DNA of 8,794 bases from a bacterium (GTDB lineage Bacteria > Desulfobacterota > DSWW01). The notes beneath the pieces are model-generated. The model was given only the letters and a program-made list of their open reading frames with translations. It was not told the DNA's origin and ran no database searches. A program made the position numbers and the translations under genes. The stretch spans positions 1 to 8,794 of the forward strand of contig JAUWSZ010000060.1 in assembly GCA_030609865.1 (NCBI GenBank). The letters run 5' to 3'. The first letter of the stretch is position 1. Each line of letters starts with the position of its first letter. Shown in pieces: positions 2,915 through 8,794 of this stretch.

Positions 2915-5065
2915 ATGATCGAGACCAAGAAGTCGTTTTGCCGCTTCTGCCACGCCTTCTGCGGGATCGAGGTGGACGTAGAGGACAACCGGGTGTTGGC
3001 GGTGCGCGGAGACCCGGACAACGCGGTCTCCCAGGGATACACTTGCCTGAAGGGCCGGGCCGAGGTGGACCGGATCTACCATCCGGACCGTCTCCTGTCC
3101 TCCAAGAAGCGGGTCAACGGCCGGAGGGTGGACATCCCCGCAGAGCAGGCACTGGACGAAATTGCCGGGAAACTCGAAGCGATCGTGGCCGAACACGGCC
3201 CCCGTTCCGTGGCCACGTTCCTGGGCTGCGGCGCCCACCGGACTTCTGCAAGCGGTCCGTGGTTCGTCCGCAAGTGGTTCGAGGCCCTCGGTTCGCCCAG
3301 CCTCTACACGACCTTCACAATTGACTGCCCCAGTATGCTCGTCGCTGCGGACCGACTGTTCGGAGCCCCGGTCCCGGTCAATCTGTTCGACATCGCGAAC
3401 GCCGACGTGGCCATGTTCGTGGGCACCAATCCCGTTGTGTCTCACGTGATGAGCATGCCCCAGTCAAACCCCTTCAAACGGTTGAAAGACGCCCAGAAGC
3501 GCGGCATGAAGCTCATCGTCATCGACCCCCGGTGTTGCGACGTTGCCCGGCGTGCCGACATCCACCTGCAGGTCAAGCCGGGAGAGGACGCTACACTGCT
3601 CGCAGGAATGATCAAGATCATCATCGAACAGAACCTCTACGACCGCGAGTATGTCGAGAGCTTTGTAAGCGGCATGAGCGAATTGCACGAGGCAGTGGAG
3701 GACTTCGAACTCGCGTACGTTTCCAGCCGGACCCAGGTGCCGGCCGACCGGATCGAGCAGGCCGCTCGAACGCTGGCTACGGCCGAGCGAGGCGGCGCAC
3801 AGACCGGGAGCGGGGTGCACATGGGGCGTCACCAGAACCTGACCACCCAGCTCGTCATGACTTTGAACGCCTTGTGTGGGCGTTACGACCGCCGCGGAGG
3901 CCTGGCACGCAACGAGGGGCCACTGGGGCAGCGGATTCCGGAAAACATGGGGCCTATAAACAAGCCATTGTACTCCGGCCTGGTCTCCCGCGTCCGGGGA
4001 ATCAAGGGGACCACGGGTGGTTTGGGATACTACCTGGAGATGCCCAGCAATACCCTTACGGACGAGATCCTGACACCCGGTGAGGGCAAGATCCGGGCCC
4101 TCATCGTGGTGGGGGGCAACCCGGCCCTGGTCTTCCCGGATGAGAAGTCCACGGTCCGGGCGCTACAGGATTTGGACCTCCTGGTGGTCAACGATCTCTT
4201 CCTGTCGGCCACGGCGCAGTTCGCTGACTACGTCCTGGCGGTCAAACACCCCTTCGAACGGGCAGACGTCCCCAGACTGATGGACTGGGGATATCCCTTC
4301 CCCTTCGGGCAGTACACACCCCCCCTCGTCGAGGGCCCCCCCGGCACACAGGAAGACTGGGAGGTATTCTGGGGCCTCGCAAAACGGATGGGCCTTCGGC
4401 TGAAGGTCGCGGGCATCGAGAAAGATCGGAAACCCACGGCCGACGAGATGCTGGACGGTCTCTTCTCGCATGCGCGCATTCCGCTCAGCGAAATTCGCAA
4501 GTACCCGGGCGGCCACGTCTGGGGGGAAGAGGAAGCAAAGGCGGGAGGGGTCATCCCCAACATGATCGGACACGAGGACCGACGGATGGCCGTCGGCCAC
4601 CCCGAGGTCATCGCCGAGCTGCGAGAGGTGCGAGCAGAGCCCGTAGTCGAAGGTGGAGGCTACGAGCCCGGCGAGAACTGCACCTTCCGGCTGATCACCT
4701 ACCGCATGCGGGAGGTGTACTGCAGCCAGGGGCAGAACCTGCCGTCCCTGCACTCCAAGCGCCCCTTCAACCCCGTACTGATGAACCCGGAGGCCATGCA
4801 GTCGCTGGGCGTCAAGGATGGAGACCTGGTCGTAGTGGACAGCGGCTTTGGGAGCGTGGAGGCCATCGTGGAAGGGACCGACGACTTGACGGTCGACGTC
4901 ATCGCCCTCGCCTTCGGCTGGGGCGATCCATCGGACGATCGAGACGTCCGTGAGAAGGGATCGAACGTCCAGCGCCTGATCCCGGACGATTACCGATACG
5001 ACCCGGTCACCGGCCTGGCCCTCCAGACCGCTATACCCGTAAACGTGTATACCCGTACGAATTGA
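2915..5065 (+). CDS. Molybdopterin oxidoreductase (paralogue of the upstream gene)
   Basis: This is a second DMSO reductase-superfamily enzyme of 716 residues, about normal for a catalytic subunit. C9, C12, C16 and C44 give CxxCxxxC-x27-C for the [4Fe-4S] cluster, with C44 followed by LKG as in many formate dehydrogenase-like proteins. C138 in TIDCPSM sits where the Mo/W-ligating Cys or Sec falls in this family. EILTPGEGKIR (from about 384) marks the central domain. The C-terminal domain carries VKDGDLVVV and FGWGDP. No signal peptide is visible, so a cytoplasmic location is likely. It is clearly related to the upstream gene (matching VRGD.DN, HGPRS/YGPRS, GTNP and DEILTPG blocks) but lacks the lysine tail. 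AAGGAG at 2899-2904 supports the start. The serine hydrolase gene follows after 18 nt. No electron-transfer or membrane subunit is adjacent, so the redox partner is unknown. The substrate cannot be read from sequence. Confidence 0.93.
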   Translation: MIETKKSFCRFCHAFCGIEVDVEDNRVLAVRGDPDNAVSQGYTCLKGRAEVDRIYHPDRLLSSKKRVNGRRVDIPAEQALDEIAGKLEAIVAEHGPRSVATFLGCGAHRTSASGPWFVRKWFEALGSPSLYTTFTIDCPSMLVAADRLFGAPVPVNLFDIANADVAMFVGTNPVVSHVMSMPQSNPFKRLKDAQKRGMKLIVIDPRCCDVARRADIHLQVKPGEDATLLAGMIKIIIEQNLYDREYVESFVSGMSELHEAVEDFELAYVSSRTQVPADRIEQAARTLATAERGGAQTGSGVHMGRHQNLTTQLVMTLNALCGRYDRRGGLARNEGPLGQRIPENMGPINKPLYSGLVSRVRGIKGTTGGLGYYLEMPSNTLTDEILTPGEGKIRALIVVGGNPALVFPDEKSTVRALQDLDLLVVNDLFLSATAQFADYVLAVKHPFERADVPRLMDWGYPFPFGQYTPPLVEGPPGTQEDWEVFWGLAKRMGLRLKVAGIEKDRKPTADEMLDGLFSHARIPLSEIRKYPGGHVWGEEEAKAGGVIPNMIGHEDRRMAVGHPEVIAELREVRAEPVVEGGGYEPGENCTFRLITYRMREVYCSQGQNLPSLHSKRPFNPVLMNPEAMQSLGVKDGDLVVVDSGFGSVEAIVEGTDDLTVDVIALAFGWGDPSDDRDVREKGSNVQRLIPDDYRYDPVTGLALQTAIPVNVYTRTN

Positions 5066-5083
5066 GAAGGGGGAGTCAGGACC

Positions 5084-6268
5084 ATGGCAAAGAGGAAGAA
5101 CAACGATTCCGATCTTTCGAGGAATTTGGGCCTCGACCCCAGGGCCCTCAGCCGCCTGGCTGAGACGATTGAGAAGGACATTACCCAGGAACTCTATGAT
5201 GGGGCCGTCTTCATTGTGGCGCGTCACGGCGAAATCGCGATGCACGAGACAATCGGGCATACGGACCTGGCAAACAAGCGCACTGCCGCGAAAGATGACG
5301 TATTCCACCTCATGTCCGTAACGAAGCAGTTAACGTCCGCTGTCATTCTCGCAGCCATCGATAGAGGGGATTTTACGCTCACCACAAAGGTCAGTGAAGT
5401 CATCCCGGAATTCGGCGTAAAGGGCAAACAAAACGTAACCGTCGGACATCTCTTGACCCAGACGAGCGGGCTCAATACGGAATTACCATTCATGGTCCCC
5501 ATGGATCAGATCGCGAACATCCAGGTGCGGGTCAGCGCCGTCTGCAACGATCGACTCCATCACATCCCAGGCAAGATGGTTTCCTATAACGCCACCACGG
5601 CACACGCCCTCCTGGCCGAGATGGTGTGCCGCCTCGATCCGGCCATGCGTCCTTTCCGTCAGATACTCGACGAGGATCTGTTCAAGCCCCTCGGGATGAA
5701 GGATACCTCCCTCGTGCTCCGACCGGATCTTGCGGAGCGCAGAGTCCCTATTGTGGCTCGCTATGCCACCCCCGGACTCTTCGATCCTGTGATGCTCGAA
5801 ACAACGAACTATCTCTTCACAGAAGAAACGGAGTTTCCTGCCGGCGGAGCAATCGGTACGGCTTTGGATCTATTTCGTTTCACGGAGATGCTCAGACGAG
5901 GAGGGGAACTTGACGGCGTACGGATCCTGTCCCCCGGAATCATCAAGAATGCCACCACGAATCACACCGGATCCCTTCCCAACGACATCTTTGACTATGC
6001 ACGGGAAATGCGTGCTTGGCCGGAATGGCCTGCCTATTTGGGGCTTTCTTTCTTCTTGCGCGGTGAGGGGATATTCCCGACGCCTCTCGGCATCTCCACA
6101 TCCCCAGGAACCTTTTCCGGACAAGGTACAGGATCCACGATATTCTGGGTAGACCCTGAGCGAGACCTCACTTTTGTATGTCTGACGGCTGGTGTCATCG
6201 AGGACGGAGATAATATCTTACGTTTTCAGAAGCTGTCGGATATGGTCGTCGCTGCCGTGGTCCACTAG
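5084..6268 (+). CDS. Serine hydrolase, class C beta-lactamase/esterase family
   Basis: A 394-residue protein of the beta-lactamase/transpeptidase-like fold. The nucleophile motif is S78-V-T-K81 inside HLMSVTKQLTS. The second motif is Y168-N-A in VSYNATTAHALL. The usual class C beta-lactamase motif is Y-S-N, so the third position (A170) is changed. That is closer to family VIII esterases and LovD-like acyltransferases than to antibiotic-hydrolysing enzymes. A GTGS segment near the C-terminus may supply the third motif. There is no signal peptide or lipobox, so it is probably cytoplasmic, again unlike a true beta-lactamase. An AGGGGGAG ribosome-binding site lies about 8 nt before the ATG. The 18-nt gap to the oxidoreductase gene suggests co-transcription. 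An ester, thioester or amide linked to the oxidoreductase substrate is a plausible target, but that is inference. Confidence 0.88.
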   Translation: MAKRKNNDSDLSRNLGLDPRALSRLAETIEKDITQELYDGAVFIVARHGEIAMHETIGHTDLANKRTAAKDDVFHLMSVTKQLTSAVILAAIDRGDFTLTTKVSEVIPEFGVKGKQNVTVGHLLTQTSGLNTELPFMVPMDQIANIQVRVSAVCNDRLHHIPGKMVSYNATTAHALLAEMVCRLDPAMRPFRQILDEDLFKPLGMKDTSLVLRPDLAERRVPIVARYATPGLFDPVMLETTNYLFTEETEFPAGGAIGTALDLFRFTEMLRRGGELDGVRILSPGIIKNATTNHTGSLPNDIFDYAREMRAWPEWPAYLGLSFFLRGEGIFPTPLGISTSPGTFSGQGTGSTIFWVDPERDLTFVCLTAGVIEDGDNILRFQKLSDMVVAAVVH

Positions 6269-6340: not shown

Positions 6341-6769
6341 CTATATCCAGCGTCTTACCTTGTTCTTGTATTGCAGGTACTCATCTCCGAATTTACCTTC
6401 CAGATATTCCTCCTCACGAACGACGACAGCACGCTCAAGAGCAATGAGAAGCACCGGGAGCAAGAATACCAACCACAATGAATTTGCATAAATTGAAATC
6501 CCACTGTAGATCAGCATGAGCGATAGGTACAAGGGATTTCTGGTGTATCTGAAGAAACCCTCGGTGACAATCGTTGTTGTCGGCCTATCAGCCCGTGGAT
6601 CTGTCTTCTTGCGTAACATCAGGCGCGTTGTTGTCACCATGATAATACCTGAAATTACGAACAGAAGATTCGCCAGCACCTTTGATAGAGTACTTGGATG
6701 AGCCATGATGGCAAGCGGGTAGAATCTGTGAATGAGGAACCCCACAGCCAGGACGACCCCAAATATCAC
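6341..6769 (-). CDS. Isoprenylcysteine carboxyl methyltransferase-like membrane protein, start disturbed
   Basis: A small integral membrane protein of the ICMT/phospholipid methyltransferase group (SAM-dependent methyl transfer). There are about three to four hydrophobic segments: residues 1-22, 31-50, 79-95 and 96-113. The C-terminal signature is present: TEGFFRYTRNPLYLS (70-83) and then EEEYLEGKFGDEYLQYKNKVRRWI-like sequence, matching the usual G.YR..RNP.Y and E...FG..Y..Y...V.R pattern. The GTG at 6769 has no ribosome-binding site, and family-like sequence (DDEDHAHIVAHPP) continues upstream in frame without any ATG. An ATG at 6807-6805 overlaps the stop of the preceding gene (ATGA) and has AGGGA upstream, but it lies in a different frame. 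One base missing between 6807 and about 6800 would explain this. Bacterial members often have unknown substrates. Confidence 0.75.
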   Translation of the reverse strand: MIFGVVLAVGFLIHRFYPLAIMAHPSTLSKVLANLLFVISGIIMVTTTRLMLRKKTDPRADRPTTTIVTEGFFRYTRNPLYLSLMLIYSGISIYANSLWLVFLLPVLLIALERAVVVREEEYLEGKFGDEYLQYKNKVRRWI

Positions 6770-6803: not shown

Positions 6804-7283
6804 TCATCTTTCCCTGCTTCCTTCGGTCACGGAACTCGATGACTTACGCGAAAGCGTATTGCCAAGACTATTGGTAAATCTCATCATACGCATGACTTTT
6901 TGAATATACTCTCTTTGCTCTTTGGGATAGTGGCTTTGATAATCAGCTACAGAGTCGCTTGCGGGTTCCGCTCCGTTCAATAGGGCCCAGTCGTGTGCAT
7001 ATTTCAGGGCCAACCATTCCCTGTATTCGAAGTCTGACTTGTTCAGCTCGATCAGCTTATCGATTTCCGTATCTGTCAGTCCAAGCCGCAGACCTGCGGC
7101 AGCATGATGGGTGGTTCACTCCGTACAGTTATTGGCAATGGAAACGGTAATCATGATCTTCTTTCTCAACTTCTCGTCCAGTTTCGTGAACGCTGAATAG
7201 AAAGACGGACCCGTGAACAAACTGTAGAACTTTGACTTGAAATCTGACATAGACGTAAACCTGCTCGTTTCCTCAGTTGGCAT
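6804..7283 (-). CDS. AhpD/carboxymuconolactone decarboxylase-like selenoprotein (UGA = Sec56)
   Basis: Reading from ATG at 7283 through one in-frame TGA gives 159 residues that fit the AhpD-like/carboxymuconolactone decarboxylase fold end to end. The N-terminal helix ends in KLDEKLRKKIMITVSIANN. The active site is C53-T-E-U56-T-T-H-H60, i.e. CxxU-x3-H in place of the family's CxxC-x3-H. Then come AAAGLRLGLTDTEID and the helical WLALKYAHDWAL and YIQKVMRMMRFTNSL segments usual for the family. TGA (7118-7116) replaces the second cysteine codon, and a SECIS-like hairpin starts within 20 nt. AGGAG 8 nt before ATG fixes the start. The gene ends with its own TGA, overlapping the next gene by ATGA. 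The expected role is thiol/selenol redox or peroxide reduction in the cytoplasm. It lies 58 nt downstream of the ferredoxin-nitroreductase gene. A nonsense mutation is the alternative, but it would have to hit exactly the redox residue. Confidence 0.88.
7085..7100 (-). promoter_or_regulatory. Bacterial SECIS element
   Basis: Minus-strand GCCGC-AGGTCT-GCGGC is a perfect five-pair stem with a six-base loop; A-U pairing would extend it to six pairs around GGTC. The loop begins 20 nt after the UGA codon, within the spacing required for SelB-dependent insertion. The apical GC-AGGTCT-GC is identical to the apical part of the E. coli fdhF SECIS as I remember it. It lies inside the coding sequence, encoding AAGLRL, as bacterial SECIS elements do. 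Confidence 0.85.
7116..7118 (-). other. UGA selenocysteine codon (codon 56)
   Basis: The in-frame TGA replaces the C-terminal cysteine of the CxxC redox motif (NNC-T-E-stop-TTHH). Coding sequence on both sides matches one family without frame change. The same gene also ends in TGA at 6806-6804, where no hairpin follows, consistent with context-dependent decoding. Confidence 0.87.
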
Positions 7284-7341
7284 CTTATTGTCTCCTAAGG
7301 TGTTTTATCGCACCGAACTTCCTCGAAAGAGCTCGGTCTCG

Positions 7342-8223
7342 CTAACGCCACTGAACATCAGGACGATTACGCTCAATCAACCGCATATATTTGATATCCT
7401 GGTAGCCCATGGTCATTGCCCCATAACATTTGTTGTCCTTGGGGATGCCGAGGCGGTTCTTCAATTTCTTGTTGTTGTTTACCGAATTCTCCACCCATCC
7501 GTTGAAGCAAACCCCTACCCCTAGAACATGTGCCATCAGGGAACAATGATACATGGCTGCTGCACAATTGAAGGCAGGGCTGCCGTCCCAATCTTCCGCG
7601 TGGACCAAGAGCAGGGCCTGGGCGTGACGTAACAGCGGGTCTTCACCCTGTTCGATTCGCTTACGTGCATAGATGATCGCGGGTCCGTAGTTCTCGAGTT
7701 CCTGAATCTTCTTGCGTCCTATGATCTTGGACATGAGGAGGGCGAAAGGCTTCTTCTCCAGCTGCTTGAAGAATTTCGCATTGAACTCCATTATTTCCTT
7801 GCCCAATTCAGAAATCTCCGCAGGGGATGTCATGATCAGATAGTGAACTCTCTGACTGTTGGAGCCGGTTGGGGCGTACCTGCCTGCATTGATGATCTGT
7901 TCCAGCACCTCCTTGGATATCGGCTCCTTACGGTACGAACGCACAGATCGCCTTTCCCGGAGAAGCTGCATAAGAGTTTCCGGGGAGACGGCCGGCTTCT
8001 CGCCTACAGTGAGATCAGGCGCAACTACAGTCTTCTTTTGGACCACCGCGTCGACCGGACAGACCGCCCCACAATGACCGCATTCGATGCACCATTCTCC
8101 ACGGTCGACAACAGCCTTGTCGTCCTTCATGTCCAGCGTAAAGACCGGACAGGCCTGCACACAGATCCCACAGCCCGTACATGCGGCGGTGTCTATCTCG
8201 GGTGGCGTCGTTGTTCTTCCCAT
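7342..8223 (-). CDS. Ferredoxin-nitroreductase fusion protein
   Basis: A 293-residue fusion. Residues 15-25 (CTGCGICVQAC-P) and 45-55 (CIECGHCGAVC-P) each give CxxCxxCxxxCP for a [4Fe-4S] cluster. The nitroreductase fold, an FMN-dependent oxidoreductase, begins near 83 with RERRSVRSYR (89-98) and APTGSNSQ (117-124). It continues through HAEDWDGSPAFNCAAAMYH and GVGVCFNGWVENS. The fused ferredoxin would feed electrons straight to the flavin, so the enzyme probably uses ferredoxin-level electrons or passes electrons to a partner instead of using NAD(P)H. The substrate is unknown: nitro compounds, quinones or enones are possible. The start ATG has AAAGGAG about 10 nt upstream. The stop lies 58 nt before the selenoprotein start, suggesting one transcript. 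A promoter candidate lies at about 8305-8333. Confidence 0.9.
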   Translation of the reverse strand: MGRTTTPPEIDTAACTGCGICVQACPVFTLDMKDDKAVVDRGEWCIECGHCGAVCPVDAVVQKKTVVAPDLTVGEKPAVSPETLMQLLRERRSVRSYRKEPISKEVLEQIINAGRYAPTGSNSQRVHYLIMTSPAEISELGKEIMEFNAKFFKQLEKKPFALLMSKIIGRKKIQELENYGPAIIYARKRIEQGEDPLLRHAQALLLVHAEDWDGSPAFNCAAAMYHCSLMAHVLGVGVCFNGWVENSVNNNKKLKNRLGIPKDNKCYGAMTMGYQDIKYMRLIERNRPDVQWR

Positions 8224-8439: not shown

Positions 8440-8794
8440 TTATTTCTTCGCTTGCTTGGCTTTCTTCAATCTTAGTTTGGTCCGAAGCTGATTTAGTTGC
8501 GTGTCTTCAAAGTTCATGGTATCAGGATCTATTAACCACTTGAATTCGCCTCGCGTCGCGGCATCATCGAGCCTTTGTCGATAGAGTTCATAGTTCACAG
8601 GCATTGCCTCCGATAGGAGTCCCCAATCTCCATCAACGGCATCAATGGCTATTTCAGGACACACCATTACACAACGCCAACAAAAAATGCACGGATTCTG
8701 TATGGTTGGAGGATCGGCCCCGATGTCAATACCACCGACAGGACAATTCTCTTCACATGTATGGCATTCCACGCACGTATCCGTGTCAATACGC
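8440..8794 (-). CDS. 4Fe-4S dicluster ferredoxin-type protein, 5' end outside the window
   Basis: The frame is open to the right edge, so the N-terminus is missing; 117 codons plus the stop are visible. Cluster motif one is TCVECHTCEENCP and motif two is PCIFCWRCVMVCP, both CxxCxxCxxxCP, for two [4Fe-4S] clusters separated by about 20 residues. A helical, charged tail follows (NYELYRQRLDDAATRGEFKWL and beyond) and ends in a basic stretch, KLRLKKAKQAKK. It is a likely electron carrier or the small electron-transfer subunit of an enzyme encoded further right. The GTG at 8772 would be an internal start that removes the first cysteine of cluster one, so it is not the true start. The nitroreductase gene lies 216 nt downstream. 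Confidence 0.85.
   Translation of the reverse strand, partial: RIDTDTCVECHTCEENCPVGGIDIGADPPTIQNPCIFCWRCVMVCPEIAIDAVDGDWGLLSEAMPVNYELYRQRLDDAATRGEFKWLIDPDTMNFEDTQLNQLRTKLRLKKAKQAKK

Follow-up and report, generated by a model that had tools for sequence, protein, structure and literature searches.

An in-frame TGA in a CMD/AhpD-type gene of a Desulfobacterota bacterium: a probable selenocysteine codon in the front half of an apparently split membrane-methyltransferase fusion

The stretch of 8,794 nucleotides analysed here (the window; contig JAUWSZ010000060.1 of assembly GCA_030609865.1, Desulfobacterota, DSWW01) carries on its minus strand a CMD/AhpD-type open reading frame (ORF) that is interrupted by an in-frame TGA. 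An earlier note on this DNA, made from the letters alone, had taken the apparently broken gene for a selenoprotein with a CxxU centre. This raised the question of whether the TGA is read as selenocysteine (Sec) or as a stop, and to what kind of protein the gene belongs.

The minus-strand frame 7283-6804 is 159 residues long when the single TGA inside it (7118-7116) is read as U56, and it ends in a second TGA. The internal TGA had been placed on the second Cys of a CxxC-x3-H motif, and C53, U56 and H60 were indeed found as stated, the active-site stretch reading C53-T-E-U56-T-T-H-H60. Family-like sequence on both sides of the codon was confirmed as well: with Cys put at position 56, the Pfam CMD family PF02627 matched residues 33-81, spanning the TGA, at 3.2e-10 (40.3 bits, cut-off 23). 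Plain ORF calling on the window yielded remnants only, among them the predicted piece of 69 residues after a TTG start (6804-7013). The features of the window are collected in Table 1.

Table 1. Positions of the selenoprotein candidate, its signals and its neighbours in the window.
Feature	Position	Strand	Remark
Two tandem molybdopterin oxidoreductases, formate dehydrogenase/thiosulfate reductase type	501-2789, 2915-5065	+	
Serine hydrolase, PF00144 family	5084-6268	+	Nearest lipase LipE, well under cut-off
PEMT/ICMT-type integral-membrane methyltransferase ORF, detached C-terminal half	6341..6769	-	142 aa, GTG start
CMD/AhpD-type selenoprotein ORF (proposed)	6804..7283	-	159 aa with U56
AAGGAAGC, apparent scar of 50-bp deletion relative to L001	6816..6823	-	
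SECIS-type hairpin GCCGCA-GGTC-TGCGGC	7085..7100	-	Loop 21 nt after TGA
His60 codon, active-site His of CxxC-x3-H motif	7104..7106	-	
Proposed Sec56 codon (in-frame TGA), second residue of C53-x-x-U56 redox pair	7116..7118	-	
Cys53 codon, first residue of redox pair	7125..7127	-	
Lys41 codon, place of AhpD proton-relay Glu (12 before first Cys)	7161..7163	-	
GGAG, likely ribosome-binding site	7292..7295	-	8 nt before ATG
Ferredoxin-nitroreductase protein	7342..8223	-	58 nt upstream of CMD ORF
4Fe-4S protein, C-terminal part, cut by window end	8440..8793	-	Best NCBIfam EFR1 ferredoxin, under cut-off

A scan of genome contigs provided two relatives with TGA at codon 56, namely L001 from a Syntrophobacteria MAG (about 90% identical to the window, and 88% in the best segment of the scan) and L002 from a Desulfobacterales MAG (42% identical). 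A profile built from the window, L001 and L002 was searched against genomes of the phylum and of the order. The phylum search (395 genomes, E <= 1e-5) gave 28 matches, four of them with one internal TGA; 23 of the 28 read Cys in a motif scan and one (L053) had no motif line. The order search (389 genomes, E <= 1e-10) gave 16 matches, ten with one internal TGA. Three genomes were common to both searches, so that 41 distinct genomes were matched. The set compared at the DNA level comprised 21 relatives and the window (22 genes); three duplicate loci and the 20 other phylum matches, among which 19 read Cys, stood outside the DNA-level tests. Within this set codon 56 was TGA in 14 genes, including the window, and TGC in the other eight. 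The relatives with TGA came from 13 other genomes, those of L001 and L002 and 11 further ones. The earlier note had proposed, as a check, a search for homologues with Cys or Sec at position 56, and homologues of both kinds were thus found (13 with TGA, eight with TGC). On a tree of the 22 genes the Sec/Cys label required five changes, three of them forced by well-supported branches, and 48 of 500 label shuffles needed as few changes as observed. The tree also contained close mixed pairs, such as L070 (Sec) and L077 (Cys). With Sec and Cys versions in close relatives, the role of Sec can be studied in matched pairs.

Some further observations were made on the family. The active-site His is replaced by Arg in two of the 14 TGA genes, L071 (G533) and L073 (G200). 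Four database proteins of 111-118 residues (P0026, P0027, P0028 and P0031) begin with a Met that precedes the active-site His by three residues, as would be expected if a Sec codon slightly further upstream had been called as a stop. P0031 is named as coming from a Spirochaetota MAG, and the family may reach beyond the Desulfobacterota. A scan of IMG/VR gave no relative.

A SECIS-like hairpin with correct spacing had also been claimed for the window. The hairpin present there, with a stem of 6 bp and GGTC as its loop, begins 15 nt downstream of the TGA; its dG, for the hairpin alone, is -9.5. It lies within the bSECIS limits given in PMC13188914, which are a loop of 3-9 nt, a stem of 4-16 bp, a distance of 16-37 nt from the UGA, an MFE <= -7.5 and a G in the first two loop positions. 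The claim thus stood as far as the published limits are concerned, but the hairpin taken alone did not stand out clearly from synonymous shuffles (p 0.16 with wide limits, 0.04 with post-hoc limits and 0.05 with the published limits), and the hairpin evidence therefore rests on the relatives as a group. The three statistics combined wide limits with pooled codon usage, post-hoc limits with GC3-matched codons, and published limits with GC3-matched codons; the last version is the one relied on. With the published limits, p was below 0.1 in ten of the 14 TGA genes (Fisher 5e-9) versus one of the eight Cys genes (Fisher 0.7), these Fisher values, like those below, being guides only because the sequences are related. 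Hairpins within all published limits, with a dG <= -7.5, were found in 11 of 14 TGA genes versus two of eight Cys genes. Those of L067 (-1.9), L072 (-0.4) and L069 (-5.5) among the TGA genes fell short of -7.5. With the post-hoc limits, 11/14 TGA genes (Fisher 1.3e-10) versus 0/8 Cys genes (0.99) had p below 0.1, and in each TGA gene no more than about 7% of the other codons scored as well as the TGA or better. When wide limits were combined with pooled codon usage, p was below 0.1 in only five of 14 TGA genes and one of eight Cys genes. The energy of the whole 45 nt behind the window TGA carried no signal (z +0.22). As a group, the TGA copies are enriched in SECIS-type hairpins downstream of the codon, and the Cys copies are not. 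An Rfam scan of the window gave no match to a SECIS family; its sub-threshold matches to BjrC68 and Glutamine-II were taken as chance.

The machinery for Sec insertion was searched in the genomes of the relatives. SelB was found over its cut-off in all 13 genomes with a TGA relative (both of those with L001 and L002 and all 11 further ones), tRNA-Sec in 11 of the 13 (both of the former and nine of the latter) and SelA in both TGA relatives' genomes tested for it. tRNA-Sec was not found in the TGA genomes G438 and G561. Among the Cys genomes, SelB and tRNA-Sec were each present in 7/8 as well, so that neither singles out the TGA genes; the machinery shows only that Sec decoding is available in the genomes of the relatives. 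In two sets of SelB search controls, 14/14 and 11/14 gave matches, which were over the cut-off in only two. Only matches over the cut-off were counted, and the weaker ones in the controls were taken as other elongation factors. Two tRNA-Sec candidates over the cut-off per genome were seen in G406 and G455, and in G406 the second of them adjoins a second over-cut-off SelB (C31). At the sequence level the reading of window codon 56 as Sec in a CxxU centre is well supported by a TGA kept in relatives, by TGC in its place in the Cys relatives, by the group-wise excess of hairpins behind the TGA and by the Sec machinery in relatives' genomes.

In L001 a single frame runs from the ATG of the CMD part through the TGA and a linker into a PEMT/ICMT-type domain, giving a protein of 330 residues. 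The model of this protein showed two helical domains joined by a linker (residues 145-183) with pLDDT<50, at a pTM of 0.48; a Foldseek search with it gave weak matches (best E 0.011, none <= 0.001). The corresponding domain passed the PF04191 cut-off of 25 in the window ORF (45.9 bits, 8.4e-12) and in L001 (38.2 bits). Scores against NF040696, protein-S-isoprenylcysteine O-methyltransferase, were 33.0 and 28.0 bits, far under the equivalog cut-off of 160, and 'Ste14' therefore names a fold, while the function implied by the name is not supported. Among the matches listed, none of the CMD, fusion and PEMT proteins reached the cut-off of an NCBIfam equivalog.

A protein search with the window ORF gave 40 proteins, most with PF04191 and some named Ste14, which aligned downstream of the Sec codon. 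The L001 fusion protein, with full-length proteins admitted, gave 79 matches. A protein was counted as fused when it aligned to the L001 protein on two sides, at residue 140 or earlier and past residue 260. In this sense 49 of the 85 proteins from the pooled searches were fused, and these carry the C-terminal part of the CMD domain. The comparison of these 49 was one of protein records, and the DNA through the Sec codon was read for the window and L001 only. None of the 49 covers residue 56, the earliest start being at residue 67; their commonest length is 262 residues (16/49), and 37 of them start with Met. No full-length Cys fusion occurred among the 85 pooled proteins. Outside the 49, two proteins contain residues from before codon 56: P0033 seems to be frame-shifted at this point, and P0037, with alignments at 1-43 and 127-258, lacks the codon. 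Late starts of this kind are produced by gene callers for any Sec codon, and the 49 late starts are what a gene caller gives when codon 56 is taken as a stop. The 49 database fusions apparently lack their redox centre because the Sec codon was read as a stop; in some of them truncation or a different start may have another cause. A study of the 'Ste14' of these bacteria would then clone an incomplete protein.

In the window, the methyltransferase ORF is 81% identical to the C-terminus of the L001 fusion. The 8-mer AAGGAAGC occurs twice in L001 (8307 and 8357, 50 bp apart) and once in the window (6823-6816), and the window is without the 50 bp of L001 between these direct repeats. The stretch concerned lies in the linker of the L001 protein. 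As 50 is not a multiple of three, the CMD frame runs into three foreign residues and a TGA at 6806-6804: residues 1-156 follow the ancestral frame, and 157-159 with the stop are out of frame. The end at residue 159 is thus not the natural end of the family, the ancestral frame being left after S156. A comparison of the window with L001 gave dN/dS values of 0.12 for the CMD and 0.20 for the PEMT part, and most of the divergence between the two may predate the deletion. Programmed frameshifting at the CMD stop was considered and rejected: no slippery site was seen by eye and L001 is in one frame. Taken together, the window gene is with good probability the N-terminal Sec half of an ancestral CMD(Sec)-PEMT fusion, its UGA being decoded as Sec and its two halves separated by the 50-bp deletion. 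The earlier interpretation was therefore right in its selenoprotein reading and CxxU centre, and missed that the gene is the front half of such a fusion.

Other explanations of the TGA were weighed against this one. If the codon were a nonsense mutation, the CMD ORF would be a pseudogene, in line with the remnants from plain ORF calling and with a second defect in the window copy, the 50-bp frameshift. However, codon 56 is also TGA in relatives from 13 other genomes, which are spread over several branches of the tree, dN/dS is about 0.12 for the CMD part, and group-wise enrichment of hairpins was seen only behind TGA. All of this argues against decay, and we regard this explanation as barely credible. 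Alternatively, the UGA could be a true stop, with the cell making only the downstream methyltransferase protein by re-initiation. That none of the 49 fused database proteins starts before residue 67 would agree with this, but such starts arise at any Sec codon as an effect of gene calling. Moreover, residues 1-56 are conserved, the CMD active site straddles the codon and the Cys relatives read straight through it, which makes re-initiation very improbable.

A separate question is whether the gap at 6823-6816 belongs to the organism at all, or is an assembly or sequencing artefact that conceals an intact fusion. None of the 49 fused database proteins has such a deletion, at most three residues being missing over L001 residues 148-190, and the PEMT frame in the window is otherwise open and conserved; both observations speak for an artefact. 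On the other side, loss exactly between 8-bp direct repeats is an ordinary outcome of slippage, and an 8-bp repeat is shorter than the words usually used in assembly. We consider an artefact possible, though less likely than a real deletion. The Sec half of a split fusion is our preferred reading of the window gene, and the 50-bp deletion appears to separate its CMD and methyltransferase halves.

The CxxU centre as such is not new. The earlier note had mentioned AhpD-like selenoproteins from metagenomes, and these are in print: AhpD-like/CMD (PF02627) selenoproteins with CxxU have been described since 2005 from the Sargasso Sea and GOS surveys (PMC1088965, PMC2398784) and are also listed in PMC13188914. 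By the passages describing them, the Sargasso Sea and GOS proteins share with the window the CMD/AhpD domain, the CxxU and a SECIS directly after the UGA; these passages mention no fusion to a membrane methyltransferase, which sets them apart by description. PMC13188914 also lists, in brief, an arsenite methyltransferase/AhpD domain selenoprotein (NF041537) with UxxG and CxxU and three Sec. Judged by its name, it combines a methyltransferase with an AhpD CxxU domain, as the fusion described here does, and it is a possible parallel for the joining of this domain to another methyltransferase; the entry differs in its three Sec, compared with one Sec and a PEMT/ICMT-type membrane domain in the window family. 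NF041537 was absent among the NCBIfam matches at E <= 0.001. Two families with a related CMD core, GSU3128 family NF041047 and GroundWater_YciW NF053654, are both named (seleno)protein, and their scores were far under the cut-offs (25.2 vs 110 and 29.1 vs 310). A CMD(Sec)-PEMT/ICMT fusion was not found in the open-licence literature searched, a body that excludes most subscription papers. As far as searched, the PEMT/ICMT fusion is the new part.

Among characterized proteins, M. tuberculosis AhpD and PA0269 have a helical hairpin with CxxC-x3-H as here; the window protein differs in that Sec replaces the second Cys and Lys the relay Glu, and in that its ancestral form has a C-terminal membrane domain. 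The PA0269-type entries 2ijc, 2o4d and 7xw1 matched by sequence and weakly by fold. According to PMC3141380, the relay of AhpD consists of five residues, Glu, Cys, His, Cys and His, and the relay Glu is replaced by His in one AhpD-like protein. The position 12 before the first Cys is Glu in 20 of the 22 sequences and Lys only in the window and L001. Measured against the AhpD pattern of CxxC-x3-H with Glu at -12, the window protein has the C, the U and the H, with Lys at -12, and scores for ahpD_dom TIGR00778 (cut-off 27.8) were borderline (window 27.9, L001 27.6). For both reasons the protein is called AhpD-like and is not claimed as AhpD. The C-terminal domain matched Ma-ICMT (4a2n) by sequence (7.8e-6 with a single sequence, 1.3e-6 with a profile) and weakly by fold (E 0.54). 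Compared with Ma-ICMT and other PEMT/ICMT proteins, it has Arg-Asn-Pro-x-Tyr instead of Arg-His-Pro-x-Tyr and is joined to a redox selenodomain.

From these features a mechanism can be proposed, in which the substrate and the electron donor are suggested by two loci, the window and L001. The UGA at 7118-7116 would be decoded as Sec by SelB and tRNA-Sec via the downstream hairpin. The selenolate would attack an oxidised or electrophilic substrate, and Cys53 would close a selenenylsulphide; a redox role of the C/U pair is likely. Reduction would be supplied by the adjoining ferredoxin-nitroreductase, a plausible electron donor to the pair. The second domain of the intact fusion might then methylate the reduced substrate, probably a lipophilic thiol or similar, at the membrane; this coupling is speculative. 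The Lys in place of the relay Glu would fit a substrate other than a hydroperoxide. Only tentatively, then, the ancestral protein may be pictured as a selenoenzyme of the membrane, fed by the adjoining ferredoxin-nitroreductase, in which the second domain methylates the product of a Sec-dependent reduction. Should both parts be expressed in the window organism, they would function as two independent proteins. An intact fusion would join selenium redox chemistry and a membrane methyltransferase in one chain, and it suggests a substrate class that can be tested. The fold of the debrominase Bmp8 (6ohi), seen among the sequence and fold matches, is a lead for the substrate; no support for this link was found in the open-licence literature searched.

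The position beside a ferredoxin-nitroreductase had been singled out as unusual. This neighbour is real (7342-8223) and common to the window and L001. The ORFs compared at the remaining TGA loci included no counterpart of the nitroreductase, the serine hydrolase or the PEMT protein, and within this comparison these three were confined to the window and L001. The L001 cluster shares with the window the ferredoxin-nitroreductase (92% identical) and the serine hydrolase (90%), and further 4Fe-4S proteins lie near the gene in both. The window 4Fe-4S protein at 8440-8793 has no clear counterpart in L001; a pairing with L001 11053-11889 was dropped, as the match was only E 0.001. The pair of molybdopterin oxidoreductases, neither of which came near the cut-off of any of the 25 families listed, is convergent with the selenoprotein cluster. 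Near the TGA CMD gene of L063, a protein of 278 residues (3215-4051, minus strand) is a closer match to window 8440-8793 (1.9e-7) than any protein of L001. Finally, the L001 cluster contains a second ferredoxin-nitroreductase (4706-5626, minus strand), which is 42% identical to that of the window.
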